A stretch of DNA of 14,007 nucleotides, taken from the NCBI RefSeq assembly GCF_000966975.1, contig NZ_JZWV01000098.1:1-14007 (forward strand). Reading direction: 5' to 3'. Position 1 is the stretch's first letter; the number at the start of each line of letters is the position of its first letter. The position numbers and the translations under genes were made by a program. Source of the stretch: Streptomyces katrae (GTDB lineage Bacteria; Actinomycetota; Actinomycetes; Streptomycetales; Streptomycetaceae). Below are positions 1,539-14,007 of the stretch, piece after piece. The notes below the pieces were generated by a model. It worked only from the letters and a program-made list of their open reading frames with translations, did not search any database and was not told where the DNA came from.

Positions 1539-1560
1539 ACGCGCCCCCAGAGGGGCGTGT
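1539..1560 (+). terminator. Hairpin after the ATPase gene, possible terminator
   Basis: ACGCGCCCC (1539-1547) pairs with GGGGCGTGT (1552-1560) over 9 bp, including one G-U pair, around the 4-nt loop CAGA. It begins 12 nt after the ATPase stop and ends 35 nt before the next start. There is no T-tract, but actinomycete terminators often lack one. It plausibly separates the phosphatase/ATPase pair from the downstream operon. It could instead be a leader structure of that operon. Confidence 0.5.
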
Positions 1561-1583
1561 TGAATCGGCAGCGAATCCAGAAC

Positions 1584-1590
1584 AAGGAGA
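1584..1590 (+). promoter_or_regulatory. Ribosome-binding site fixing the DJ-1-like start
   Basis: AAGGAGA lies 5 nt before ATG 1596. It favours this start over the in-frame GTG at 1557, which would add 13 poorly conserved-looking residues and would lie inside the hairpin. No convincing -10/-35 pair was recognised in 1527-1583. Confidence 0.75.
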
Positions 1591-1595
1591 GAATC

Positions 1596-2336
1596 ATGAG
1601 GATTCTCGTCGTCTTGACGGCAAAGGCCACCCTCCACCTCCTGGACGGGGAGCAGCACCCCTCCGGCTTCTGGGCCGAGGAATTCGTGGTCCCCTACACC
1701 CTCTTCCAGGCCGCCGGCCACACCGTCGACGTGGCGACGATCGGGGGCGCCACCCCCACGGTCGACCAGACCAGCATCGACCCCCAGTTCCTGCAGTACG
1801 TGCGCCCGGCGGGCTCGCCCGACGAGGACGCCGCCAACGCGGCCGAGTACGTGCGCGTCATCGAGCAGGCCCCCCAGCTCCGCAGCCCCCTCGCCATCGA
1901 GTCCCTCGGCGAGAAGGACGTCGCCGGATACGACGCCCTCTACATCAGCGGCGGCCACGGGGCCATCGGCGACCTGCCGAAGTCCGACGAACTGGCACAG
2001 GTGCTGCGCTGGGCCATCGCCCAGGACAAGCCGATCGCCACCGTCTGCCACGGCCACACCTCCCTCCTCGCCCTGCGCGACGGAGAGGGCCGCTGGCCCT
2101 TCGAGGGATACCGGATGACGGCGTTCTCGCACGAGGAGGAACTGGTCACCAACATGGCCGGCCGGCTCCCCCTGATCCTGGAGGCCGAGCTGACCAGACT
2201 CGGCGCCCGCTACGAGAAGGCCGACGCGATCTGGGACTCCCACGTCGTCGTCGACCGCAAGCTCACCACCGGCCAGAACCCCTACTCCTCCAAGGCCCTT
2301 GCCGAGACGTTCCTGCGGCAGCTCGACAAGGCCTAG
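1596..2336 (+). CDS. DJ-1/PfpI (Hsp31-like) family protein, type 1 glutamine amidotransferase fold
   Basis: The 246-residue protein matches the Hsp31-like branch of the DJ-1/PfpI superfamily. An acidic pair sits at Glu28-Glu29 within FWAEEFVVPYTLF. SGGHG (118-122) is followed by DLP, and the nucleophile elbow is TVCHGH, with Cys151 next to His152. Members of this family have been reported as holding chaperones, glyoxalase III (methylglyoxal to lactate) or protein/nucleotide deglycases; the sequence cannot choose between these. No signal peptide is visible, so it should act in the cytoplasm. It is the first gene of the long downstream run, and 26 nt separate it from the aldehyde dehydrogenase gene, which supports a role in handling reactive carbonyls. 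The start is set by a good ribosome-binding site at 1584-1590. Confidence 0.88.
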   Translation: MRILVVLTAKATLHLLDGEQHPSGFWAEEFVVPYTLFQAAGHTVDVATIGGATPTVDQTSIDPQFLQYVRPAGSPDEDAANAAEYVRVIEQAPQLRSPLAIESLGEKDVAGYDALYISGGHGAIGDLPKSDELAQVLRWAIAQDKPIATVCHGHTSLLALRDGEGRWPFEGYRMTAFSHEEELVTNMAGRLPLILEAELTRLGARYEKADAIWDSHVVVDRKLTTGQNPYSSKALAETFLRQLDKA

Positions 2337-2362
2337 TCCCCGCGACACCGGAAGGTGCAGCC

Positions 2363-3847
2363 ATGACCAAGCGCGAGCTCAGCGGCCACCCCCTGGCCCA
2401 TCCCGGGAAGCTGTTCATCGGCGGCCAGTGGGTCCCGGCCCGGGACGGCCGTACGGAACCGGACATCAGCCCGATCGACGGACAGGAGATCGTACCGGTG
2501 GCCCAGGCCGCCGCGACCGACGCGGACGCGGCCGTCGCGGCCGCCCGCACGGCGTACGAGGAGGGCCCGTGGAGCAGGCTGTCCGCCCAGGAGCGCGCGC
2601 TGCGGCTGAACCGGGTCGGTGAGCTGATCGAACGGGACCTGGAGGAGATCGCCCTCCTGGAGACGGTGGACATGGGCAAACCGTTCGCCTTCTCCAGCAC
2701 CGTCGACGCACCCATGGCCGCCCAGCTGATGCACTACTACGCGGGCGCGGTCACCCGGGTCGACGGCTCCTCCAGGGCTCCCGCCGGCGGTCAGCTCGCC
2801 TACACCCTGCGCGAGCCGCTGGGCGTGGTCTGCGCCATCACCCCGTTCAACTTCCCGCTGCTGCTGTCGATGACCAAGATCGCCCCGGCCCTCGCGGCCG
2901 GGAACACGGTCGTCCACAAGCCCTCCCCGGCCACCCCGCTCACCGCCCTGAAGATCGCCGAGCTGTTCCAGGAGGCGGAGATACCCGACGGGGTGCTGAA
3001 CGTCGTCACCGGCCCCGGCGTGGAGCTGGGGGAGACCCTCACGGGCCACCCCGGCATCGACAAGATCGCCTTCACCGGCTCCACCGCCGTCGGCCAGTCG
3101 ATCATCCGCAAGTCGGCCGGCACCCTGAAGAAGGTGACGATGGAACTCGGCGGCAAATCCGCCAACATCGTCTTCGCCGACGCCGACCTCGACGCCGCCG
3201 AGGAACTCGCCTTCTTCGGCATCTACTACAACAAGGGCGAGATCTGCACGGCCGGCTCCCGGCTGCTGCTCCAGCGCCCCATCCACGACGAACTCGTCGA
3301 ACGCCTGGTCCGCCGGGCCGCAGCCCTCAAGCCCGGCGACCCGCGCGACCCACAGACCCTCTTCGGGCCGCTGGCCCACCGCGCCCAGTTCGACAAGGTC
3401 AGCTCCTACATCGAGGTGGGCGAGAAGGAAGGCGCCCTGCTGCGCACCGGCGGCACCGGCTGGACCCCCGAGGGTGCCTCCAGCCAGGGCCTGTACTTCC
3501 TGCCCACCGTCTTCACCGGCGTGGACAACGGGATGCGGATCGCCCAGGAGGAGATCTTCGGCCCCGTCCTGTCGATCATCCCCTTCGACACGGAGGAGGA
3601 CGCCGTACGCATCGCCAACGACAGCGCGTACGGCCTCGCCGCCGGGGTCCACACCAAGGACCTGCGCCGGGCCCACCGGGTCGCCTCGCAGATCAAGGCG
3701 GGCACCGTCTGGGTCAACTGCTACAACCAGTACGACCCCTCCGTCCCCTACGGCGGTTACAAGGCCTCCGGCTACGGCCGCGAGTGCGGCCCCGAGTCCC
3801 TGGAGAGCTACACCCAGACCAAGTCGGTCTGGATCGGCATGGACTGA
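2363..3847 (+). CDS. NAD(P)-dependent aldehyde dehydrogenase
   Basis: The 494-residue length is typical of the ALDH superfamily, which oxidises aldehydes to carboxylic acids. All core elements are visible: TPFNFP with the oxyanion Asn163, the cofactor-binding FTGSTAVG, MELGGKS with general-base Glu261, the catalytic Cys295 in NKGEICTAGSR, and EEIFGPVLS in the C-terminal third. The ending, with PYGGYKASGYGRE followed by YTQTKSVWI, resembles betaine/phenylacetaldehyde/retinal-type ALDHs, but the substrate cannot be read from sequence. A ribosome-binding site GGAAGG (2350-2355) precedes ATG 2363. The neighbours (DJ-1-like protein, a molybdenum hydroxylase that could also oxidise aldehydes, and an exporter) suggest an aldehyde-handling operon. 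The protein is intact and cytoplasmic. Confidence 0.95.
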   Translation: MTKRELSGHPLAHPGKLFIGGQWVPARDGRTEPDISPIDGQEIVPVAQAAATDADAAVAAARTAYEEGPWSRLSAQERALRLNRVGELIERDLEEIALLETVDMGKPFAFSSTVDAPMAAQLMHYYAGAVTRVDGSSRAPAGGQLAYTLREPLGVVCAITPFNFPLLLSMTKIAPALAAGNTVVHKPSPATPLTALKIAELFQEAEIPDGVLNVVTGPGVELGETLTGHPGIDKIAFTGSTAVGQSIIRKSAGTLKKVTMELGGKSANIVFADADLDAAEELAFFGIYYNKGEICTAGSRLLLQRPIHDELVERLVRRAAALKPGDPRDPQTLFGPLAHRAQFDKVSSYIEVGEKEGALLRTGGTGWTPEGASSQGLYFLPTVFTGVDNGMRIAQEEIFGPVLSIIPFDTEEDAVRIANDSAYGLAAGVHTKDLRRAHRVASQIKAGTVWVNCYNQYDPSVPYGGYKASGYGRECGPESLESYTQTKSVWIGMD

Positions 3848-3858
3848 ACGGACCCGAC

Positions 3859-3875
3859 GTCCGGCACCGCCGGAC
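3859..3875 (+). other. Short perfect hairpin in the ALDH to F420-reductase-like gap
   Basis: GTCCGGC (3859-3865) and GCCGGAC (3869-3875) form a 7-bp stem with a 3-nt loop inside the 48-nt gap. There is no T-tract. It could be a processing or partial-attenuation site tuning expression between the first two and the later genes of the operon, or it may have no role. Confidence 0.3.
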
Positions 3876-3895
3876 CGAGCGATCGAGGAGCATCG

Positions 3896-4504
3896 ATGCG
3901 GACAGGCGTCATCGGCACCGGGCGGATCGGCTCGACCCTCGCGAGGATCCTGGTGGCCGCGGGCCACGAGGTGGTCCTCGCCAACGCCACCGGGCCGGAG
4001 TCACTCGCCCCCCTGCTGGCCGAACTGGGCCCCGCCGCCGGAGCGGCGCGGCCCGTCGAGGCCGCCGGCCGGGCCGACCTCCTGGTGCTGATGGTGCCGT
4101 ACGCGAGCGTGCGCGGGCTGCTGCCCCCGCACGTCGTGCAGGACAAGGTGCTGGTGGACGCCACCAACGCGTTCAGCGGCCCCGGCACCCCCGCCGACCT
4201 GGGCGGGCGCGGCTCCAGCGAGCTCGTCGCCGACTGGTACCCCGGTGCCCGGGTCGTGAAATCCCTGAACACCATGCATTACGAAACGCTCGCCGTCGCC
4301 GGAAAAGCGGCAGGGGAACGCCTCGCCCATTACACGGCGGGCGACGACCCGAAGGCGAAGGAAATAGTCGCGGGAATCATCACCGATCTCGGATTCGCCG
4401 CCGTCGACACCGGACCGCTGCACTCCGGAGGAATTCTGCAGCAGCCCGGCGGCCCCCTCTTCAACCGGTCGCTCACGGAAGCGCAGGCGCTCGCATGGAT
4501 CTGA
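3896..4504 (+). CDS. NADPH:F420 oxidoreductase-like Rossmann protein
   Basis: This 202-residue protein starts with a dinucleotide-binding fold: GVIGTGRIGSTLA gives the GxGxxG motif at residues 7-12. It continues with features of the F420_oxidored/Fno-like family: GPESL after the second strand, a VVKSLNTMHYE segment, GDDPKAKEIV, and a C-terminal GPLHSGGILQQPGGPLF. Fno enzymes move hydride between NADP and coenzyme F420. The segment after strand 2 is NATGP (residues 30-34), where this family commonly has N-S-R-G-P, so the residues expected to hold the NADP 2'-phosphate are replaced; cofactor preference is uncertain. A ribosome-binding site GAGGAG lies about 6 nt before ATG 3896. The last 10 bp overlap the [2Fe-2S] subunit gene, so it is coupled to the molybdenum enzyme. 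Codon use near the 3' end is less GC-rich than elsewhere. Confidence 0.8.
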   Translation: MRTGVIGTGRIGSTLARILVAAGHEVVLANATGPESLAPLLAELGPAAGAARPVEAAGRADLLVLMVPYASVRGLLPPHVVQDKVLVDATNAFSGPGTPADLGGRGSSELVADWYPGARVVKSLNTMHYETLAVAGKAAGERLAHYTAGDDPKAKEIVAGIITDLGFAAVDTGPLHSGGILQQPGGPLFNRSLTEAQALAWI

Positions 4505-5025
4505 CACCCGCCCCCACCCTGACCCTCCACGTCAACGGAAGACCCGAGGAGTTCGCGGCACGGCCGAGCGAACTCCTCGTGGAACGGCTCCGCGACGGAC
4601 TCGGGCTGACCGGCACCAAGGTCGGCTGCGACACCGGCCAGTGCGGGACCTGCGTGGTCCGCCTGGACGGCAGGTCCGTCAAGAGCTGCCTGGTGCTCAC
4701 CGCCTCCGCCGCCGGCTCGGAGGTCACCACCATCGAGGGGGTGTCCGAACGGGGCGGCGAGCTGACCGGTCTCCAGGAGGCCCTGCGCCAGGAGCACGGC
4801 ACCCAGTGCGGGTTCTGCACCCCCGGCATGGTCATGGCCCTCGGCGAACTCGTCGAGAACACCGCCGCCGGAACGGCGCCCACCGAGCCCGAGATCCGCG
4901 AGTGGCTCACCGGCAACCTGTGCCGCTGCACCGGCTACCACAGCGTCGTCCGCGGCGTGCAGCGCGCCTGCGCCGCACCGGCGGATCCGGCCGTAACCGC
5001 CGTTCCCGCGGCCGAGGGGCGGTGA
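4495..5025 (+). CDS. [2Fe-2S] subunit of a molybdenum hydroxylase (xanthine dehydrogenase/CoxS family)
   Basis: This is the 176-residue small subunit, which carries electrons from the Mo centre to FAD. The N-terminal plant-ferredoxin domain has cluster ligands Cys45, Cys50, Cys53 (in GCDTGQCGTC) and Cys65. The C-terminal helical domain has Cys105 and Cys108 (QCGFCTPGM) plus Cys143 and Cys145 (NLCRCTGY). All eight ligands are present, so both clusters should form. The in-frame region upstream is open for a long way, but ATG 4495 gives the expected start (MDLTP, then a ferredoxin strand) and overlaps the previous gene by 10 bp. The C-terminal tail of about 20 residues rich in Ala and Pro is ordinary. 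Order small-large-medium with the next two genes makes a complete three-subunit enzyme. Confidence 0.95.
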   Translation: MDLTPAPTLTLHVNGRPEEFAARPSELLVERLRDGLGLTGTKVGCDTGQCGTCVVRLDGRSVKSCLVLTASAAGSEVTTIEGVSERGGELTGLQEALRQEHGTQCGFCTPGMVMALGELVENTAAGTAPTEPEIREWLTGNLCRCTGYHSVVRGVQRACAAPADPAVTAVPAAEGR

Positions 5026-5030
5026 GGGGG

Positions 5031-7433
5031 ATGACCAGCGTGACGGGGGAGAGCACCACCGCAGGCGGCGTCCTCGGACAGCCGCTCGACAGCCGGGAGG
5101 ACCCGCAACTGCTGCGCGGCGAGGCCGTGTACGTGGCGGACATCGACCTGCCCGGCACCGCCCACATGGCCATCCTCGGCAGCCCGGTCGCCCACGCCAG
5201 GATCCTGTCCATCGACACCTCGGCGGCCGAGCGGCTGCCCGGCGTCCTGAAGGTGGCCACCGCCGCCGACTTCACCGACGTCATGCCGCTGCCCTGCATC
5301 TGGATACCCGGCGGGGTGGAGAGCCACTTCCCGCCCCACCCCTACGGACTGCCCGGCGCCCGCCCGGTCCTCACCGGCGACACCGTCCGCCACGTCGGCG
5401 ACCCGATCGCCGTGGCCGTCGCCGAGACCCCGCGCCAGGCCGCCGCCGCCCTCGCCGCGATCAGCGTGGAGTACGAGCCGCTGCCCGTGGTCACCCGGGC
5501 CGACGAGGCCCTCGCCGAGGGCGCGCCGCAGCTGCACGAGGCCGTCCCCGGGAACCTCAACGCGTACTGGACCTGCGGCGACCAGGAACGCACCGACTCG
5601 GCCATCGCCCGCGCCGAGGTCACCGTGGAGCTGGACCTCGTCAACCAGCGCACCATCAACAGCCCCATCGAACCGCGCGGGGCCGTCGGCGACTACAACG
5701 CCGCCACCGGCGAGTACACCCTCTACGCCTCCACCCAGGGCCCGCACAATCACCGGTTCCTGCTCTCCGCGCTGGTCCTCGGCATCCCCTTCAACAAGCT
5801 CAGGGTGATCGCCCCGACCGTCGGCGGCAGCTTCGGCACCAAGGGCTACCTCTACCCCGACATGGCGCTGGTCCTGCTGCTCTCCAAGGCGCTCGGCCGG
5901 CCCGTCAAATGGGTCGACACCCGCACCGGGCTGATGAACTCCACCGTCCAGGGCCGCGACCACCGCCAGCACGTCACCCTCGCCGGCACCCGCGACGGCC
6001 GGATCACCGCCGTGCGCTGCACCAGCTACGCCAACCTCGGCGCCTACCCCTCCACCATCGGCCCCGGCGTCGCCACCGCCCTGATGGGCCGCTCCATCAC
6101 CGGCATGTACGAGATCCCCGCCGCCTTCTGCGAGGTGTACGCGGCCTTCACCAACACGGTCTCCCTCGGCGCCCAGCGCGGCAGCGGACGCGCCGAGGCC
6201 GCCTTCCTGATGGAACGCCTCGTCGACCGGTACGCCGCCGAGATCGGCATGGACCCGGCGGAGGTCCGCCGCAGGAACCTGGTGCCGAAGGAGAAGTTCC
6301 CGTACGACAACGGCCTCGGCTGGACCTACGACTCCGGGAACTACGCGCCCAACTTCGAACGGGCCCTGGAACTGGCCGGCTACGCCGACATGCCCGCCCG
6401 CAAGGCCGCCGCCCGCGCCCGCGGCAAGCGCCTGGGCGTCGGCATCGCCACCTACGTGGCCATCTGTGGTGTCGGCCCCTCCACCCGGATGTCCAAGGAG
6501 GGCATGCTCGGCGGCACCTGGGAGAGCGCCAACATCCGCGTCCACCCCACCGGCGAGGTCACCGTCACCGTCGGCTCCGCCTCCACCGGCCAGAGCCACG
6601 GCACCGTCTTCGCGATGGTCGCCGCCGACGAACTCGGCATCGACCCGGCGCAGGTCCAGGTGTACGAGGGGGACACGCTCAAGGCCCCGTACGGGCAGGG
6701 CACCTACGGCTCCCGCTCGTACAGCATGGCCGCCCCCGCCGTCGCCCTCACCGCCCGCAAGATCAAGGCCAAACTGATCCGGGCCGGGGCCGTCTTCCTG
6801 AACGTCCCCGAGGACAAGGTCGTCTACGAGAACGGCGGCGTCCACGAGGCCGGCAACCCGGAGAACGCCAAGACCTTCTCCGAGCTGGCCATGGCGATGT
6901 GGTACGGCTGGGGACTGCCCCCCGAGATCGAGCCGGCCCTGGACGAGACCACCCACTTCGACCCGCCGGACTTCAACTACCCCTTCGGCACGCACGTCGC
7001 GGTCGTCGAGATCGACGAACTCACCGGCGAGACCGAGGTGGTCGACTACACCGCCGTGGACGACGCCGGGAACATCGGCAACCCGAAGATCGTCAACGGC
7101 CAGATCGAGGGAAGCATCGTGCACGGCCTGGGACAGGCCCTGATGGAAGCCGCCGAGTACGACGAGAACGGCATCCTGCTCAGTTCCGACCTGACCCACT
7201 ACGCCCTGCCCCGCGCGGCCGACGTGCCCCTGTTCACCCTCGACCGGACCGTCACCCCCTCCCCGCACAACCCGCTCGGCGCCAAGGGCGCCGGCGAGAT
7301 CGCCACCGTGCCGCCCGCCGCCGCCGTCGTGAACGCGGTCGTCGACGCCCTCGCCGACCTGGGCGTCCAGCACATCGACATGCCGCTGACCCCCGAGAAG
7401 GTCTGGCGCGTACTGGAAGGAGGGGCCCGGTGA
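5031..7433 (+). CDS. Molybdopterin-binding catalytic subunit of a xanthine dehydrogenase/aldehyde oxidase-family enzyme
   Basis: The 800-residue large subunit has the usual two-part layout: an N-terminal Ald_Xan_dh_C-like a/b domain (about 20-150) followed by the Mo-cofactor-binding region. Visible cofactor and active-site elements are GGSFG (265-269), AQRGSGR (381-387), STGQSHGT with Gln521, and GAKGAGE with the catalytic glutamate Glu756. The loop AQRGSGR lacks the cysteine of the AYRCSFR loop of form I CO dehydrogenase, so this is not a classical CO-oxidising CoxL; an aldehyde, purine or N-heterocycle is more likely. ATG 5031 follows a GAGGGGG-type ribosome-binding site and lies 5 nt after the small-subunit stop, although the frame is open further upstream. 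The stop overlaps the FAD-subunit start by 4 nt. The enzyme is probably cytoplasmic, as no Tat signal is seen. Confidence 0.94.
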   Translation: MTSVTGESTTAGGVLGQPLDSREDPQLLRGEAVYVADIDLPGTAHMAILGSPVAHARILSIDTSAAERLPGVLKVATAADFTDVMPLPCIWIPGGVESHFPPHPYGLPGARPVLTGDTVRHVGDPIAVAVAETPRQAAAALAAISVEYEPLPVVTRADEALAEGAPQLHEAVPGNLNAYWTCGDQERTDSAIARAEVTVELDLVNQRTINSPIEPRGAVGDYNAATGEYTLYASTQGPHNHRFLLSALVLGIPFNKLRVIAPTVGGSFGTKGYLYPDMALVLLLSKALGRPVKWVDTRTGLMNSTVQGRDHRQHVTLAGTRDGRITAVRCTSYANLGAYPSTIGPGVATALMGRSITGMYEIPAAFCEVYAAFTNTVSLGAQRGSGRAEAAFLMERLVDRYAAEIGMDPAEVRRRNLVPKEKFPYDNGLGWTYDSGNYAPNFERALELAGYADMPARKAAARARGKRLGVGIATYVAICGVGPSTRMSKEGMLGGTWESANIRVHPTGEVTVTVGSASTGQSHGTVFAMVAADELGIDPAQVQVYEGDTLKAPYGQGTYGSRSYSMAAPAVALTARKIKAKLIRAGAVFLNVPEDKVVYENGGVHEAGNPENAKTFSELAMAMWYGWGLPPEIEPALDETTHFDPPDFNYPFGTHVAVVEIDELTGETEVVDYTAVDDAGNIGNPKIVNGQIEGSIVHGLGQALMEAAEYDENGILLSSDLTHYALPRAADVPLFTLDRTVTPSPHNPLGAKGAGEIATVPPAAAVVNAVVDALADLGVQHIDMPLTPEKVWRVLEGGAR
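7417..7423 (+). promoter_or_regulatory. Ribosome-binding site for the FAD subunit
   Basis: AAGGAGG, a near-consensus Shine-Dalgarno sequence, lies inside the end of the large-subunit gene, 6 nt before GTG 7430. It fixes the GTG start and the GTGA overlap. Confidence 0.8.
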
Positions 7434-8284: not shown

Positions 8285-9559
8285 GTGGAGTTGACGAGCG
8301 TGCACGAACCGACCGACACGACGACCACGGGAGACATGCCGCAAGCGGCCGGCCGCCCGGCGGCCGGGCCGAGACCGTCCGGCTTCTGGGTGGTGGGCGC
8401 GGTCCTGGTGCTGCTGATGCTCTCCTCCTCCGTGCCCTCCGCCCTCTACGTGCTGTACCAGCAGCGCTGGGGGCTGTCCGCCGGCGTCGTCACGGTGGTC
8501 TTCGCCGTGTACGCCGTCACCGTCCTCGCCGGCCTGCTGCTGTTCGGGTCGCTCTCCGACACCCTGGGGCGCCGGCCCGTCCTCGGCGCCGGCCTGGTCC
8601 TCGCGATCGTCTCCATGGGGCTGTTCGCCGGGGCCGGAGGGCTCGGCCTGCTGCTCGCCGCCCGCGCCGTACAGGGGCTGGCGGTGGGCCTGGCCACCGG
8701 GGCGATGGGGGCGGCCCTGCTGGAACTCAGCCCGCGCTCACGGCCCGCCCTCGGGGCCCAGGTCAACAGCGCGGGGCCGACCGTCGGCATCGGCCTCGGC
8801 GGGCTCGGGGCCGGACTGCTCGTCCAGTACGCCCCCGCCCCGACCGTGCTGAGCTACCTGCTGCTGGTCGTCGCCTTCGCGGTCACGCTGGTCGGGGTGG
8901 TCCGGATGGGCGAGAGCGCACCCGGGGCGGGGGGACGGTTCAGGGTGGTCCCGCACCGGATCCGGGTACCGGCCGCCGTGCGGCGCCGGTTCGCCGTGCT
9001 GGTGCTGACGGTGGTGGCCGTCTGGACCGTCGGCGGCTTCTACCTCTCGCTCGGGCCGCACCTGGCCCTGTCCCTGCTCCACACCACCAACTACCTGGCC
9101 GGCGGGGCCACCGTGGCCCTGCTCGCCGGCTCCGCCACCTGCGCCCAGCTGCTGCTGGGCCGCACCGAACCGCTGCGCACCGCCGTCCTGGGGCTGCTCG
9201 GGCTGCTCGCCGGGCTGGCCCTGGTCCTGCTGGCCCTGGGCCTCGGCTCGGCGCCCGTGTTCCTCGTCGCCACCGCCGTCCTCGGCAGCGGCTGGGGAGC
9301 GGCCTTCCTCGGCTCCTTCCGCGCGATCAGCACCCTCGCCGAGCCCGAACACCGCGGCGAACTGACCGCCGCCGTCTATGTCTTCGCGTATCTCGCCATG
9401 AGCGTCCCGGCGGTCCTCGCCGGACTCCTGACCAACATCCACGGCCTGCAGCGCACCTCCGTCGGCTTCATGGCCGCCGTCGCCGCGGTGTGCGCGCTGG
9501 CCCTGTTCACGACCCTGCGGCTGGCCGCGCGCACCAGGGCCGAGGGGAGCACCCTGTGA
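8285..9559 (+). CDS. Major facilitator superfamily transporter
   Basis: This is a 424-residue polytopic membrane protein with about 12 predicted hydrophobic segments. The first spans roughly residues 35-55, after a hydrophilic Thr/Pro/Gly-rich N-terminus. MFS motif A is clear in the loop between segments 2 and 3: GSLSDTLGRRP (residues 88-98). A middle basic loop (VPHRIRVPAAVRRRFAV) marks the link between the two six-helix halves. Such carriers are proton- or solute-coupled; the repeated Gly/Leu-rich helices resemble drug- or metabolite-efflux members, but direction and substrate are not readable. The start may be GTG 8285, TTG 8291 or GTG 8300. The stop overlaps the following histidine kinase start by 4 nt, tying transport to sensing. 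It may export a substrate or product of the oxidoreductases upstream (inference). Confidence 0.9.
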   Translation: MELTSVHEPTDTTTTGDMPQAAGRPAAGPRPSGFWVVGAVLVLLMLSSSVPSALYVLYQQRWGLSAGVVTVVFAVYAVTVLAGLLLFGSLSDTLGRRPVLGAGLVLAIVSMGLFAGAGGLGLLLAARAVQGLAVGLATGAMGAALLELSPRSRPALGAQVNSAGPTVGIGLGGLGAGLLVQYAPAPTVLSYLLLVVAFAVTLVGVVRMGESAPGAGGRFRVVPHRIRVPAAVRRRFAVLVLTVVAVWTVGGFYLSLGPHLALSLLHTTNYLAGGATVALLAGSATCAQLLLGRTEPLRTAVLGLLGLLAGLALVLLALGLGSAPVFLVATAVLGSGWGAAFLGSFRAISTLAEPEHRGELTAAVYVFAYLAMSVPAVLAGLLTNIHGLQRTSVGFMAAVAAVCALALFTTLRLAARTRAEGSTL

Positions 9560-11007
9560 CCAACGTGAGCACCAAAGAGCTGCGGACCATCCTGCAGGGG
9601 CTGGAGATCTTCGCCGCGATCACCGAGGAGCAGCTGGACTGGCTCGTCTCGGTCTCCCACGTGCGCGTCCTGGCCGACGGGGAGGTCCTCTTCCACGACG
9701 GGGACGAGGCCACCTGCTTCCACGTGCTGGTCTCCGGCGGGCTGGTCGTCACCAAGGTCGTCGACGGCCGGGAGGAGGTCCTGACCCGGCACTCCACCGA
9801 GGAGGAGACCGCCGCCGCGGACGAGCACGACGGCAAGCCCACCGCCGCCCACCGCTTCACCGGGGAGCTGCCCCTGCTGACGGACGGCTCCTACGTGGCC
9901 ACCGCCTCCGCGAGCGGGCCGGAGACCACCGTCGTGGCCTACCCGAAGCCGGTGTTCTTCGAGATGCTGACCCGCTGCAACGGGGTGGCCGCCGTGCTGA
10001 TCCCCGTACTGGCCTGGCGGATCAAGTCCTCCGAGGTCCAGGCCCGCAAGCGGGCCACCGTCGAGGCCCTCGGCACCCTGGCAGCGGGCCTGGCGCACGA
10101 GCTCAACAACCCGGCGGCCGCCGTGGCCCGCGCCGCTCAGGAGCTGGTGCCCGCCCTGGAGCGGCTGACCGCCACCGCGTACGGCTGGGGCGCGGCCGCC
10201 ACGGCCGCCGAACGCGACGTACTGGAACACCTGGCCGGGGAGCTGGACCGGCTCCCACCCCCCGAGACCACCGACCCCCTCGCCCAGGCCGACGCCGAGG
10301 AGGAAATCACCGACTGGGCCGAGGAGGCCGGCGCGGGCCGGCCCGAGCTGCTCGGCGCCGGGGCCTCCGACCTCGGGCTGGAGCTGAGCTGGCTGCTGGA
10401 GCGGCTGGAGGGCATCGGCGAGGCCGCCCTGCCCGACGCCCTGGACCACCTGGCGGCGCTGCTGGAGGCCCGGTCTCTGGCCGCCGAGCTGCGCGCGGCC
10501 GGCCCCCGCATCTCCCAGCTGGTCGCGGCCACGCGGGACTACGCCAACCTCGACCGGGCGCCCGAGCAGCGCTTCGCGGTCACCGACGGCCTGGAGAACA
10601 CCCTGGTCGTGCTCCGCTCCAAGCTCACCGGGATCACCATCGTCCGCGCCTACGACCCGGACCTGCCGGAGCTGACCGGCTACCCGGGGGAGCTCAACCA
10701 GGTGTGGACCAACCTGGTCGACAACGCGGCCGAGGCCATGGAGGGCGCGGGCACGCTGACCCTGCGCTGCTACGCCGAGGGCGTCTGCATGGTCGTGGAG
10801 ATCACCGACACCGGCCGGGGCATCCCCGAGGACGTCCTGCCGCGCATCTTCGAGCCCTTCTACACGACCAAGGACGTGGGCAAGGGCACCGGTCTGGGGC
10901 TGCACCTCAGCTACCGGATCGTCACCCAGCGCCACCACGGGTCGATCACGGCCCGCTCCCGCCCGGGCGAGACCCGGATGCTCGTACGCCTGCCCCTGGC
11001 GGGCTGA
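9556..11007 (+). CDS. Sensor histidine kinase with N-terminal cyclic-nucleotide-binding-like domain
   Basis: The 483-residue soluble protein has an N-terminal CAP/cNMP-binding-like barrel (about 15-150, including LADGEVLFHDGDEATCFHVLVSG). The kinase core follows: H-box GLAHELNN with phospho-acceptor His181, N-box NLVDNAAEAM (from Asn386), G1 box DTGRGIP (Asp418) and FEPFYTTKDVGKGTGLGL (F/G2 boxes, to about 449). The 205 residues from His181 to the N-box are about twice the usual distance and hold a helical, acidic Ala/Glu/Leu-rich insert. No transmembrane segment is present. An acidic insertion within the barrel (HSTEEETAAADEHD) makes cyclic nucleotide binding doubtful. Relatives in actinobacteria are often found beside thioredoxin-reductase-like proteins; none is here, nor is a response regulator. 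GTG 9556 overlaps the transporter stop (GTGA) and has GAGGGGAG upstream. Confidence 0.9.
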   Translation: MTNVSTKELRTILQGLEIFAAITEEQLDWLVSVSHVRVLADGEVLFHDGDEATCFHVLVSGGLVVTKVVDGREEVLTRHSTEEETAAADEHDGKPTAAHRFTGELPLLTDGSYVATASASGPETTVVAYPKPVFFEMLTRCNGVAAVLIPVLAWRIKSSEVQARKRATVEALGTLAAGLAHELNNPAAAVARAAQELVPALERLTATAYGWGAAATAAERDVLEHLAGELDRLPPPETTDPLAQADAEEEITDWAEEAGAGRPELLGAGASDLGLELSWLLERLEGIGEAALPDALDHLAALLEARSLAAELRAAGPRISQLVAATRDYANLDRAPEQRFAVTDGLENTLVVLRSKLTGITIVRAYDPDLPELTGYPGELNQVWTNLVDNAAEAMEGAGTLTLRCYAEGVCMVVEITDTGRGIPEDVLPRIFEPFYTTKDVGKGTGLGLHLSYRIVTQRHHGSITARSRPGETRMLVRLPLAG

Positions 11008-11084: not shown

Positions 11085-11426
11085 ATGGCCAAGTACGACA
11101 TCTCCGCGCTGCACCCGGTCTTCGTCCGCCAGATGGACGCCCTGGCCGCGCTGGACATCGAGGCGGTGATGAAGAACTACACCGAGGACGCCGTCCTGGT
11201 CCGCTTCGAGGGGGCCTCGGTGGGGATCGAGGCCGTGCGCGAGACGTTCACCGGCTATCTCACCCTGAAGCCCACGCTCGTCGAACTCCAGGAGTACATC
11301 GAGACCGACGACACCATCTTCTACCGGGCGATCATGAACCTGAACGGCGCCCCGGAGCACGCGTTCGGGACACTCGTCGTCCGCGATGGCCGGATCTGGC
11401 GCCAGACGGCCGGCTTCGGCAGCTGA
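11085..11426 (+). CDS. Small NTF2/SnoaL-like protein
   Basis: The 113-residue protein has the start pattern of the SnoaL/NTF2-like fold: a helix with HPVFVRQMDALAALDIEAVMKNYTEDAVLVRFEG, then GIEAVRETFTGYL, and a cone of strands ending in GTLVVRDGRIWRQTAGFGS. The fold can host small-molecule isomerases, cyclases or ligand-binding proteins. No catalytic residue set was recognised, so the function is open. ATG 11085 is chosen because AAAGGAAG (11071-11078) lies 6 nt upstream; the frame is open further back inside the kinase gene but overlaps it. It is 77 nt after the kinase and is followed by a strong hairpin, making it the last gene of the long run. It may bind or process the same compound as the upstream enzymes (inference). 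Confidence 0.85.
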   Translation: MAKYDISALHPVFVRQMDALAALDIEAVMKNYTEDAVLVRFEGASVGIEAVRETFTGYLTLKPTLVELQEYIETDDTIFYRAIMNLNGAPEHAFGTLVVRDGRIWRQTAGFGS

Positions 11427-11507: not shown

Positions 11508-12152
11508 ATGGAGACGGAAACCAACCGGGTGGAGGCGTTCAGCGATGGCGTATTCGCCATCGTGATCACCATTCTGGTGCTGGAGTTAAAGGTTCCGGAA
11601 GAGCAGGGGTCTGCCCTCTGGCACGGCCTCTTGGAGCAATGGCCGCACTATGCCGCGTATCTGGTGAGTTTCCTCATCATCGGCGTGATGTGGGTGAACC
11701 ACCACACGATCTTCAGTCACCTCAAGCGGGTCGACCGGCCCCTGTTGTTCCTGAATCTGATGGTGCTGATGGTGGTTTCGGTGATTCCGTATACGACCAA
11801 CATCCTCGCCGAGCACCTCATGGACGGGGATTCGGCCAATGTCGCCGCGATCCTCTACAGTTCGTGGACCGTCGTGTACGCTCTCGCGTTCCTGGGATTC
11901 TGGTGGTACGTGACCAAGGTCGGCCACCTCTTCCACGAAACAGTGGACAAGGACGGGGCCCGGGCCACCCGTGTCCGATTCGGACTGGGCGCGGTCGCCT
12001 ACCCCTTGACCGTGATTCTGTCCTTCTTCTCCGCACCTCTCACTCTCGTCGCACACTTCCTGATCGCCCTCTACTACGCCGCGAACCAGATCCCCATCCC
12101 GCTCGTGGTAGAAGAAGAGCGGCTCGAAACTGGCAGCGACCTCAGGAAGTAG
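11508..12152 (+). CDS. TMEM175-family (DUF1211) integral membrane protein, putative potassium channel
   Basis: The 214-residue protein opens with the family hallmark R-V-E-A-F-S-D-G-V-F-A-I followed by a hydrophobic TM1 (residues 13-29). Further segments lie at about 48-64 (ending in WVNHH), 78-100, 111-134, and two near the C-terminus, giving the six-segment bacterial TMEM175 layout. Family members form tetrameric channels, and several conduct K+; they are not related to classical TVGYG channels. The ribosome-binding region AAAGGGGAGG (11496-11505) precedes ATG 11508. Leu27 is encoded by TTA (11586-11588), a codon rare in Streptomyces and read by the bldA tRNA, so translation may be delayed to late growth. 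Codons are less GC-rich than in the upstream operon, and a strong hairpin separates the two, so it probably has its own promoter; no promoter was identified. Confidence 0.9.
   Translation: METETNRVEAFSDGVFAIVITILVLELKVPEEQGSALWHGLLEQWPHYAAYLVSFLIIGVMWVNHHTIFSHLKRVDRPLLFLNLMVLMVVSVIPYTTNILAEHLMDGDSANVAAILYSSWTVVYALAFLGFWWYVTKVGHLFHETVDKDGARATRVRFGLGAVAYPLTVILSFFSAPLTLVAHFLIALYYAANQIPIPLVVEEERLETGSDLRK
11586..11588 (+). promoter_or_regulatory. In-frame TTA codon, TMEM175-like gene codon 27
   Basis: TTA reads Leu27 within LVLELKV. In Streptomyces TTA is decoded by the bldA tRNA, which becomes abundant late in growth; early-position TTA codons often make a gene bldA-dependent. Confidence 0.8.
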
Positions 12153-12164
12153 CCGCACCGCCCT

Positions 12165-12182
12165 ACGGCCGTTCCGGGCCGT
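12165..12182 (+). other. Weak hairpin in the channel to transposase-like gap
   Basis: ACGGCC (12165-12170) pairs with GGCCGT (12177-12182) around a 6-nt loop, 12 nt after the channel stop. It is short and could be a weak terminator or chance. The rest of the 73-nt gap has TAGGGT at 12187-12192, which fits a loose -10, but no clear -35. Confidence 0.25.
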
Positions 12183-12211
12183 CAAGTAGGGTCAAGGTCC
12201 GATCTGGTCGC

Positions 12212-12219
12212 GGGGGAGG
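12212..12219 (+). promoter_or_regulatory. Ribosome-binding site of the transposase-derived gene
   Basis: GGGGGAGG lies 6 nt before ATG 12226 and gives a confident start, showing that the gene keeps good translation signals. Confidence 0.7.
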
Positions 12220-12225
12220 CTCCAG

Positions 12226-13518
12226 ATGGTTCGCGCAGTGCTGCCCGAAGATTCCGAAACGGAAATCTCGGAATTGATCGACGTATTGATCTCGCTCTTC
12301 TTCGAATCTTTACCGCGGCGGGACCAGCGAAACTGGGCCCGCGTTTATCTCGACGGTCTGGTCCGGACCAGCGGGAAGAAGACGATCCGCAACATCGCCG
12401 GAACGGGGGCCAGTTCCGTGGAACAGAGCCTCCAGCAGTTCATCAGCAAGTCACCGTGGGACTGGACCCCGGTACGGCGGTCCCTCGCCCAGCACCTCGA
12501 ACGCACCGCGCAACGACCACTGGCCTGGGTCGTGCAGCCCATGGTCATCGAGAAGGCCGGCGACCGCTCCGTGGGAGTCGGCAGGCAGTTCGTACCCCAG
12601 CTCGGCCGCACCGCCAACTGTCAGCAGGCCGGCGGGATCTGGCTCGCCTCCAGCGAGGCCAGCTTCCCCGTCGAATGGACCCTCACCCTGCCCGGCCCCT
12701 GGACCAGCGAACTGCTGCGCCGCCGCCGGGCCGGCATCCCCGACACCGCACGTTCCCAGACACCCGCCCTGGACGCCGTACACGCCGTCCAGCGCATGGC
12801 CGCGACCTGGCAACTCCAGCGCCGCCCGGTCGTCATGGAGGTCTCCAACAGCGATCTCCCTCCCGTCCTCGAGGCGTTCACCCTCCAGGACATCCCCTTC
12901 GTCCTGAAGGTCGACGGCTCCCTGCCCGTCTCCTTCGGCGGAGCGGGCCGCCACAAGCCCGGCCCGTACACCGCGCCCGCCCGCGAACTGATCGACTCGC
13001 TGCGCTCCCAGCGCCGCGTCGTCGAATGGACCCGGCACGGCCGGGCCGAGGGATCGGTCACCCTGCTGACCTCGGCCCACATCCTCGCCACCCCCGCCGA
13101 GGACCGGCCCGCGCCCGCCCAGCCCGCCCCGCTGCTCCTGATGGGAGCCTGGACCGAGGCCTCCCTGCTCCCCTCCGAGTTCTGGATCACCAACATCGGG
13201 GACCGGCCGCTCGCGCAGCTCTTCCTGCTCGCCAAACTCACCGACCGGGTCGCCCTGGACTTCACCGAGACCTGCGAACCCGTAGGCATCCGCGACTTCG
13301 AGGGCCGCTCCTTCCGCGGCTGGCACCACCACGCCACCCTCGCCAGCGTCGCCCACGCGGCCCGGCTCCTCGGCACCGGCGGGCGGAACCCCGACCTGGT
13401 GTCCCTCGCCTCCCCCGCCCGCTACCCGGGCGGACGCGCCGCGGGACGGCCCCCCGCCGTCCTGCCGCCACGGCCCCTGATCCCCGGCCAGTCCGCGCGA
13501 CGCGCGTACATCCGCTGA
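12226..13518 (+). CDS. IS701-like DDE transposase relative, catalytic residues apparently lost (probably domesticated)
   Basis: The 430-residue length equals that of whole IS701 transposases. Family landmarks are RNWARVYLDGL near residue 40, SVGVGRQF followed by LGRTANCQQAG, FPVEWTLTLPGPW, EFWITNIGD, and DFEGRSFRGWHHH (357-369). By recalled family pattern, the first catalytic Asp lies in W-V-x-D-D-T-G; here it reads WVVQPMV, with Gln104-Pro105 at those positions. The second, in V-x-A-D-A-G-Y, reads VVMEVSN with Glu205. A glutamate near the third position (Glu348 in DFTETCE) may be kept. The frame is open throughout, yet no terminal inverted repeats or target duplications were seen, and the stop overlaps xdhC (TGATG), leaving no room for an IS end. 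It may act as a DNA-binding protein; that is inference. Leu29 is TTA. The first 100 bases are less GC-rich than the rest. Confidence 0.8.
   Translation: MVRAVLPEDSETEISELIDVLISLFFESLPRRDQRNWARVYLDGLVRTSGKKTIRNIAGTGASSVEQSLQQFISKSPWDWTPVRRSLAQHLERTAQRPLAWVVQPMVIEKAGDRSVGVGRQFVPQLGRTANCQQAGGIWLASSEASFPVEWTLTLPGPWTSELLRRRRAGIPDTARSQTPALDAVHAVQRMAATWQLQRRPVVMEVSNSDLPPVLEAFTLQDIPFVLKVDGSLPVSFGGAGRHKPGPYTAPARELIDSLRSQRRVVEWTRHGRAEGSVTLLTSAHILATPAEDRPAPAQPAPLLLMGAWTEASLLPSEFWITNIGDRPLAQLFLLAKLTDRVALDFTETCEPVGIRDFEGRSFRGWHHHATLASVAHAARLLGTGGRNPDLVSLASPARYPGGRAAGRPPAVLPPRPLIPGQSARRAYIR
12310..12312 (+). promoter_or_regulatory. In-frame TTA codon, transposase-like gene codon 29
   Basis: TTA reads Leu29 in FFESLPRR. 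Because xdhC starts within this gene's stop codon, bldA control of this gene could pass to xdhC by translational coupling (inference). Confidence 0.8.
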
Positions 13519-14007
13519 TGTTCGACATCGCCGGACCGCTGCGGAGCTGGTGCGCCGAGCGCCGTGAGTTCGCCCTGGCCACCGTGGTCGCCGTCAGCGG
13601 CAGCGCCCCCCGGGGCCCCGGGGCCAGCCTGGCCGTGGACGCCGGCGGCACCGCGCTCGGCTCCCTCTCCGGGGGCTGCGTGGAGTCCGCCGTCCACGAG
13701 CTCTGCCTGGACGCCATCGCCTCGGGCCGCGGCGGGGTCCACCGCTTCGGCTACAGCGACGACGACGCCTTCGCGGTGGGCCTGACCTGCGGCGGGGTCC
13801 TGGACGTGCTGGTCACCCCGGTGCGCGGCCAGGACCCCGTACGGCCCGTCCTCGGCTCGGTGCTCGACGCCGCCGCCGGCGGGGGCCGGGCCGCGCTGGC
13901 CCGGGTGGTCTCCGGACCGCCCGGCCAGCTCGGCCGGGCCCTGGCCGTCCACGCCGACGGCTCCTGGGAGGGCGGCCTGAGCGGCGGAGCCGCCCTGGAC
14001 CGGGCCG
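13518..14007 (+). CDS. xdhC: XdhC/CoxI-family molybdenum-hydroxylase maturation protein, N-terminal part (3' truncated by window)
   Basis: The frame from ATG 13518 is open to the window end (163 codons). It shows the N-terminal XdhC domain: TVVAVSGSAPRGPGA (22-36), GSLSGGCVE with Cys54, FGYSDDDAFAVGLTCGG with Cys91, and then LDVLVTPV. XdhC proteins bind and hand over the sulfurated Mo cofactor to xanthine dehydrogenase-family enzymes. The C-terminal Rossmann domain expected of full-length members (about 300 or more residues) lies beyond the window. The start codon shares one base with the upstream stop (TGATG), so it is coupled to the transposase-derived gene; no separate ribosome-binding site is obvious. 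The likely client is the molybdenum enzyme encoded at 4495-8257, although another could follow downstream. Confidence 0.92.
   Translation, partial: MFDIAGPLRSWCAERREFALATVVAVSGSAPRGPGASLAVDAGGTALGSLSGGCVESAVHELCLDAIASGRGGVHRFGYSDDDAFAVGLTCGGVLDVLVTPVRGQDPVRPVLGSVLDAAAGGGRAALARVVSGPPGQLGRALAVHADGSWEGGLSGGAALDRA

Follow-up and report, generated by a model that had tools for sequence, protein, structure and literature searches.

Among described systems, those closest to the protein studied here, P0001, are the IS701 transposases (NF033540, DDE_5), with which it shares its sequence family, its length, and landmarks of the GWHHH and SVGVGRQ types. Unlike them, P0001 has no DDE triad, no transposon ends, a single copy, and conserved neighbours. 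The Tn5 transposase, of the IS4 group, differs likewise in having a triad. The Tn5 inhibitor protein is a shortened product of an active transposase gene, whereas P0001 is full length, falls in a separate clade, and is conserved in its own right. A further comparison is offered by TldR, which resembles our reading of P0001 as a bacterial transposon protein turned regulator, but is derived from nuclease-dead TnpB rather than from a DDE transposase, and has no kinase partner that is known to us. TldR is an RNA-guided transcription factor (PMC13418256). Among the papers listed by a literature search, with coverage mostly outside subscription journals, there was no description of this triad-less IS701 family. 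Exapted transposon proteins are known; within the reach of that search, a family of dead DDE transposases linked to signalling genes in bacteria appears to be new.

The gene for P0001 lies in a 14,007-nucleotide stretch of DNA from Streptomyces katrae (the window). A preliminary description had proposed it as a candidate domesticated transposase. We conclude that P0001 is almost certainly domesticated and non-catalytic, and that it is probably tied in function to the adjacent module of a cyclic-nucleotide-binding histidine kinase (CNB-HK), a SnoaL_2-like protein, and a TMEM175-family protein. The features on which the analysis draws are as follows.

9556..11007, forward strand: CNB-HK, 483 aa (Pfam cNMP_binding and HATPase_c)
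11085..11426, forward strand: SnoaL_2-like protein, 113 aa (Pfam)
11508..12152, forward strand: TMEM175-family protein, 214 aa
12140..12152, forward strand: conserved upstream block CCTCAGGAAGTAG, overlapping the TMEM175 stop (orthologue comparison)
12180..12192, forward strand: conserved upstream block CGTCAAGTAGGGT, a possible promoter or operator (orthologue comparison)
12212..12219, forward strand: ribosome-binding site GGGGGAGG of P0001, kept in orthologues
12226..13518, forward strand: P0001, dead IS701-derived protein, 430 aa (ORF and family profiles)
12535..12537, forward strand: codon CAG of Q104, first catalytic Asp column (alignment with intact IS701)
12838..12840, forward strand: codon GAG of E205, second catalytic Asp column (same alignment)
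13252..13254, forward strand: codon GCC of A343, catalytic Glu column (same alignment)
13518..14007, forward strand: XdhC/CoxI-family protein, incomplete at the window end, with an ATG that overlaps the P0001 TGA

Further upstream, the region 1557–7433 carries DJ-1/PfpI, aldehyde dehydrogenase, F420-type oxidoreductase, and xanthine-dehydrogenase-like genes. Two large opposite-strand ORFs (765–2348 and 2336–3967) are not matched by any Pfam family and appear to be spurious.

Catalytic columns and transposon ends

The P0001 frame starts with ATG, is open over 430 codons (12226–13518, forward strand), and contains both SVGVGRQF and FEGRSFRGWHHH. It scores 290.7 bits against NCBIfam IS701 (NF033540; cut-off 150), which places it in the family, and 137.8 bits against Pfam DDE_5 (cut-off 27). 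The preliminary description of an undamaged, full-length frame with a good ribosome-binding site and its fold landmarks kept is thus borne out, and the structural comparison that it proposed indicates that the Tn5-like fold is predicted to be retained whole, including the N-terminal helical part. A sequence search of the PDB gave a single match (E 0.67), and no family among the PADLOC-DB 2.0.0 models matched at E ≤ 0.001, that is, there was no anti-phage defence match.

The references for alignment were intact DDE IS701 genes of related genomes, some of them present in several identical copies. Q104 aligns to the first Asp of these proteins (V-DDTGF), E205 to the second (V-x-A-D), and A343 to the Glu of W-x-I/V-E; therefore all three catalytic positions of P0001 are replaced, and the D-D-E triad of a functional IS701 transposase is missing. 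Replacement of the first two aspartates had been claimed already, to be abandoned if intact Asp stood in those columns; the alignment puts Q104 and E205 there and adds to the earlier claim the third residue. The triad loss goes beyond chance, because none of 118 full-length sequences (117 of the 120 matches listed, of 252, plus P0001) has Asp at site 1, column 104 holding Q in 64, E in 25, R in 20, H in five, N in three, and Y in one. In the 52 closest sequences among the matches listed, the three catalytic columns vary (Q/R/H; E/D/A; A/S/Q/D/T), and blocks 111–135 and 356–370 rank among the least variable.

A repeat search found no inverted-repeat pair whose two arms flank the P0001 ORF; the same search detects the ends of intact elements, among them sister-group elements, which have CTAGTAG at their tips. 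The left and right ends of six sister elements were used to build a weight matrix, for which 567 control upstream regions served as the comparison. It scores 29–36 upstream of all eight sister-type loci (seven with intact DDE, and L142, a truncated copy of the sister type from the window's own genome), six of which also served to build it. Eight intact elements of a more distant IS701 group score low (−0.8 to 11.2), and the matrix is therefore valid for sister-type ends only. Upstream of the 115 triad-less genes, no score exceeds the 99% control level (the highest is 4.6, at L192) and seven exceed the 95% level, which is about what chance would give; L142 is the only one of 116 non-DDE rows above 99%. 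At P0001 neither bracketing inverted repeats nor a matrix site was found, in agreement with the earlier statement that no insertion-sequence ends flank the gene. The conserved upstream element was also considered as an ancestral left end and rejected, since the window's best site gave p = 0.24 and the orthologues' common upstream form p = 0.16 against the 567 control regions.

A functional IS701 element is expected in multiple near-identical copies or at variable locations. P0001 occurs once in its own genome, where the remaining matches are 35%, 32%, and 31% identical, and has kept its neighbours; the many near-identical copies with inverted repeats that would have spoken against domestication were not found.

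Selection and the kinase module

Orthologues with at least 85% identity occur in 11 of 149 other Streptomyces genomes, one copy in each, and their neighbours are conserved among related loci. P0001 is under purifying selection: by the NG86 method, uncorrected for codon bias, dN/dS of the core (residues 20–385, compared against kinase-bearing strains) has a median of 0.107 in 30 kinase-bearing strains (range 0.088–0.193), and that of GuaB1 is 0.099 across 27 such strains. Whole-gene medians over all strains are 0.203 for the dead transposase, 0.134 for TMEM175, and 0.105 for GuaB1. The survey of single-copy syntenic orthologues and of dN/dS suggested at the outset thus supports domestication of a protein that descends from a transposase and has lost both triad and ends.

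The window clade comprises 37 loci (the window, L005–L039, and L265), 30 of which have both CNB-HK, whose H-box was assigned by eye from the translation, and SnoaL. The stop of P0001 and the start of XdhC overlap as TGATG (13516–13520), an arrangement found in 26 of 27 XdhC-bearing loci (window, L005–L039), and GuaB1 lies downstream at six of seven loci examined (L011, L033, L034, L037, L039, and L265; absent in L040).

In the Streptomycetaceae, the family to which the window belongs, 12 of 297 genomes gave a CNB-HK match at E ≤ 1e-110, and in all 12 this dead transposase lies, by coordinates, 33 bp to 3.2 kb from it. The kinase and transposase surveys apparently used the same genome draw, with six candidates per genome scored for the transposase and five for CNB-HK. 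A transposase match of at least 343 bits was found in 15 surveyed genomes, the lower matches being placed on the tree only in part; two of the 15 belong to another subclade (G322/G459, equal to L183/L236), and the kinase is present in 12 of the remaining 13. The exception, G624, has no kinase, and a 48-residue TMEM175 match adjoins its open dead-transposase frame.

The association of transposase and module survives rearrangement. In L232 (the P0061 record, from Kitasatospora) and L233, the transposase, CNB-HK, and SnoaL genes lie on one strand with gaps of 60 and 84 bp, and this order recurs with a gap of 128 bp in L192, which comes from a different family of the class, all gaps being measured between profile matches rather than stop codons; in L234, L235, L040, and L041 the parts of the module are arranged in other orders. 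With frame starts taken from a simple ORF caller, the transposase and CNB-HK frames overlap by four bases in L232 and lie four bases apart in L192. Kinase and transposase distances are correlated across 15 loci (Mantel test, Spearman 0.73, 0 of 2,000 permutations) and across ten (Spearman 0.53, 28 of 2,000). Both sets contain L113 and L244, where only a fragment of 42–74 aa matches CNB-HK; neither locus was for this reason counted as having a CNB-HK partner.

No response regulator was seen by eye in the gene lists of L232 and L192. Between CNB-HK and the dead transposase of L041 (4624–6590), inspection by eye showed a short protein and a protein with a response-regulator-like start. Such a protein is possibly the usual output of a CNB-HK-type kinase, and its presence there means that the kinase may have another output.

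Kinase and SnoaL are missing from seven of the 37 loci, XdhC is also missing from six of these, and in three (L017, L028, and L265) TMEM175 is still matched in part, over 121, 75, and 48 residues. Absence of the kinase probably reflects loss, because the module is present in L040, L232–L235, and L192; the GuaB1 tree calls for seven changes of kinase state, but because many of its forks are weak, it is uncertain how many independent losses took place. Core dN/dS in the seven kinase-less strains is 0.122, 0.124, 0.152, 0.204, 0.235, 0.237, and 0.411, higher than in kinase-bearing strains (Mann-Whitney p = 4e-5, kinship uncorrected) and in every case above the nearest kinase-bearing relative. Their GuaB1 values (0.092–0.172) do not differ significantly from those of kinase-bearing strains (p = 0.13), and the transposase/GuaB1 ratio is 1.18–2.40, whereas strains with the kinase have a median ratio of 1.03 and reach at most 1.33 (p = 8e-5).

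Three kinase-bearing loci without XdhC (L014, L027, and L029) have raw dN/dS values of 0.115–0.151, above the kinase-bearing median, with GuaB1 values that are also higher; their transposase/GuaB1 ratios are 0.93–1.03, and loss of XdhC alone is therefore insufficient to loosen the constraint. Ratios relative to GuaB1 accordingly disfavour XdhC or GuaB1 as the partner. Since the kinase, SnoaL, and complete TMEM175 vanish together, the data implicate the module rather than a single gene, and constraint on the dead transposase is tightest where the module is present. Kinase-less dN/dS remains below 1 (L017 and L265, at 0.124 and 0.122, are barely raised), and the frame is still open in all seven strains (422–446 codons), so that either residual function is possible or too little time has elapsed.

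Partners across the triad-less IS701 family

The wider family was sampled as best hits to P0001, P0061, A1, A2, or NF033540, not randomly, and genes lacking at least one residue of D-D-E were termed triad-less. The family tree omits the redundant window orthologues L005–L038 (except L011, L031, L033, and L037), L051, L142, and L182; the 83 triad-less rows represent 82 loci, L046 and L246 being the same record with an identical protein and contigs of equal length (121,908).

A GAF-PucR gene lies within 400 bp in 32 of the 83 rows, always convergent; the tail-to-tail gap, measured between profile matches at 32 loci including L144, is 1–347 bp. L144 is a second triad-less copy in the window's own genome (contig C1153, 1368–2528), with a GAF-PucR gene 39 bp away. 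This genome has 20 PucR-type HTH matches, 16 of them above cut-off, in 8.05 Mb, so chance adjacency is rare. CNB-HK is found within 4.2 kb in ten of the 83 rows and an ScbR-like gene within 4 kb in 12 (11 loci), where ScbR-like means a phmmer match to one protein, the only one run against the NCBIfam ScbR model. Divergent ScbR-like pairs make up nine rows (eight loci: L238–L242, L245, L046 [= L246], and L250) of a single clade (support 100/99), most with ScbA-like genes nearby; at L238 both ScbR and ScbA were confirmed by NCBIfam models. A tandem pair of triad-less IS701 genes was noted in L145 (7550–9969), with ScbA- and ScbR-like genes near.

None of the three partner types occurs in 29 of the 83 rows, three of which are window-clade losses. 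None was seen beside any of 15 intact DDE rows, of which four (L137, L140, L141, and L197) have flanks cut by contig ends and two are copies within locus L134.

Possible roles of P0001

P0001 has lost its transposon ends along with the entire catalytic triad of an IS701 transposase, its fold being by prediction retained, and we suggest that it may now work as a non-catalytic part of the CNB-HK/SnoaL/TMEM175 module. CNB-HK would emit a cyclic-nucleotide or phosphorylation signal to which P0001 would respond, most likely as the DNA-binding output of the kinase or as a DNA-binding platform. Taken as a whole, a domesticated, dead IS701 transposase serving as a non-catalytic component of the module is the reading that we consider reasonably likely, with its role in the module the conditional part; whether P0001 acts through binding DNA is about an even call. 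The evidence favours a role with the module, which is more specific than the DNA-binding role first suggested.

P0001 might instead be a stand-alone DNA-binding regulator, for instance of its own promoter or of neighbouring purine and xanthine-dehydrogenase-type genes, in which case the kinase would be no more than a linked neighbour. Conservation of the upstream blocks, the stop-start overlap with XdhC, and the position of GuaB1 would suit such a regulator, but the transposase/GuaB1 ratio is unmoved where XdhC alone is lost, and kinase and SnoaL persist while gene order shuffles; we regard it as unlikely. A block like CCTCAGGAAGTAG also lies upstream of relatives in L040 (Sphaerisporangium), L234, and L235, where TMEM175 matches are 0.3–2.1 kb away. 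The window's own genome has a single exact copy of the upstream motif, at the P0001 gene itself; no regulon was found by it, and it was dropped as a regulon motif. P0001 might also serve the kinase module through protein contacts, as a scaffold or regulator that does not bind DNA, which would account equally for the co-occurrence of kinase and transposase and would fit the nearly abutting frames of L232 and L192. The predicted persistence of the whole Tn5-like fold, N-terminal helical part included, argues against it. So do the pI, which is higher in triad-less groups than in intact elements, and the first 100 residues, which are more positively charged there, although residues 1–95 of P0001 itself are nearly neutral (charge only +0.6); we think it rather improbable.

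An inhibitor of IS701 transposition kept by the host, comparable to the Tn5 inhibitor, would not be expected to maintain a stable partnership with signalling genes; long branches divide the triad-less from the intact lineages and the ends are gone, making this very unlikely. Looser constraint in strains without the module is what a decaying pseudogene retained by chance might show, but a core dN/dS of about 0.11, close to that of GuaB1, in the 30 kinase-bearing strains and open frames even in the seven kinase-less ones leave that explanation scarcely credible.

Tentatively, and with some doubt, a single DDE-losing IS701 lineage may have given rise to actinomycete regulators that diversified by partner, P0001 being the CNB-HK output in a two-component-like arrangement. 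The partners would perhaps be CNB-HK in the window clade, GAF-PucR in convergent pairs, and gamma-butyrolactone-type receptors in divergent ones, and the catalytic residues were perhaps lost one by one in different branches. Bacterial DDE transposase genes are usually dismissed as mobile-element noise, yet the triad-less family tracks sensory and regulatory genes. If the reading is right, a proportion of the genes annotated in Streptomyces as "IS701 family transposase" would be host regulators, some of them adjoining butyrolactone-type systems that control antibiotics.
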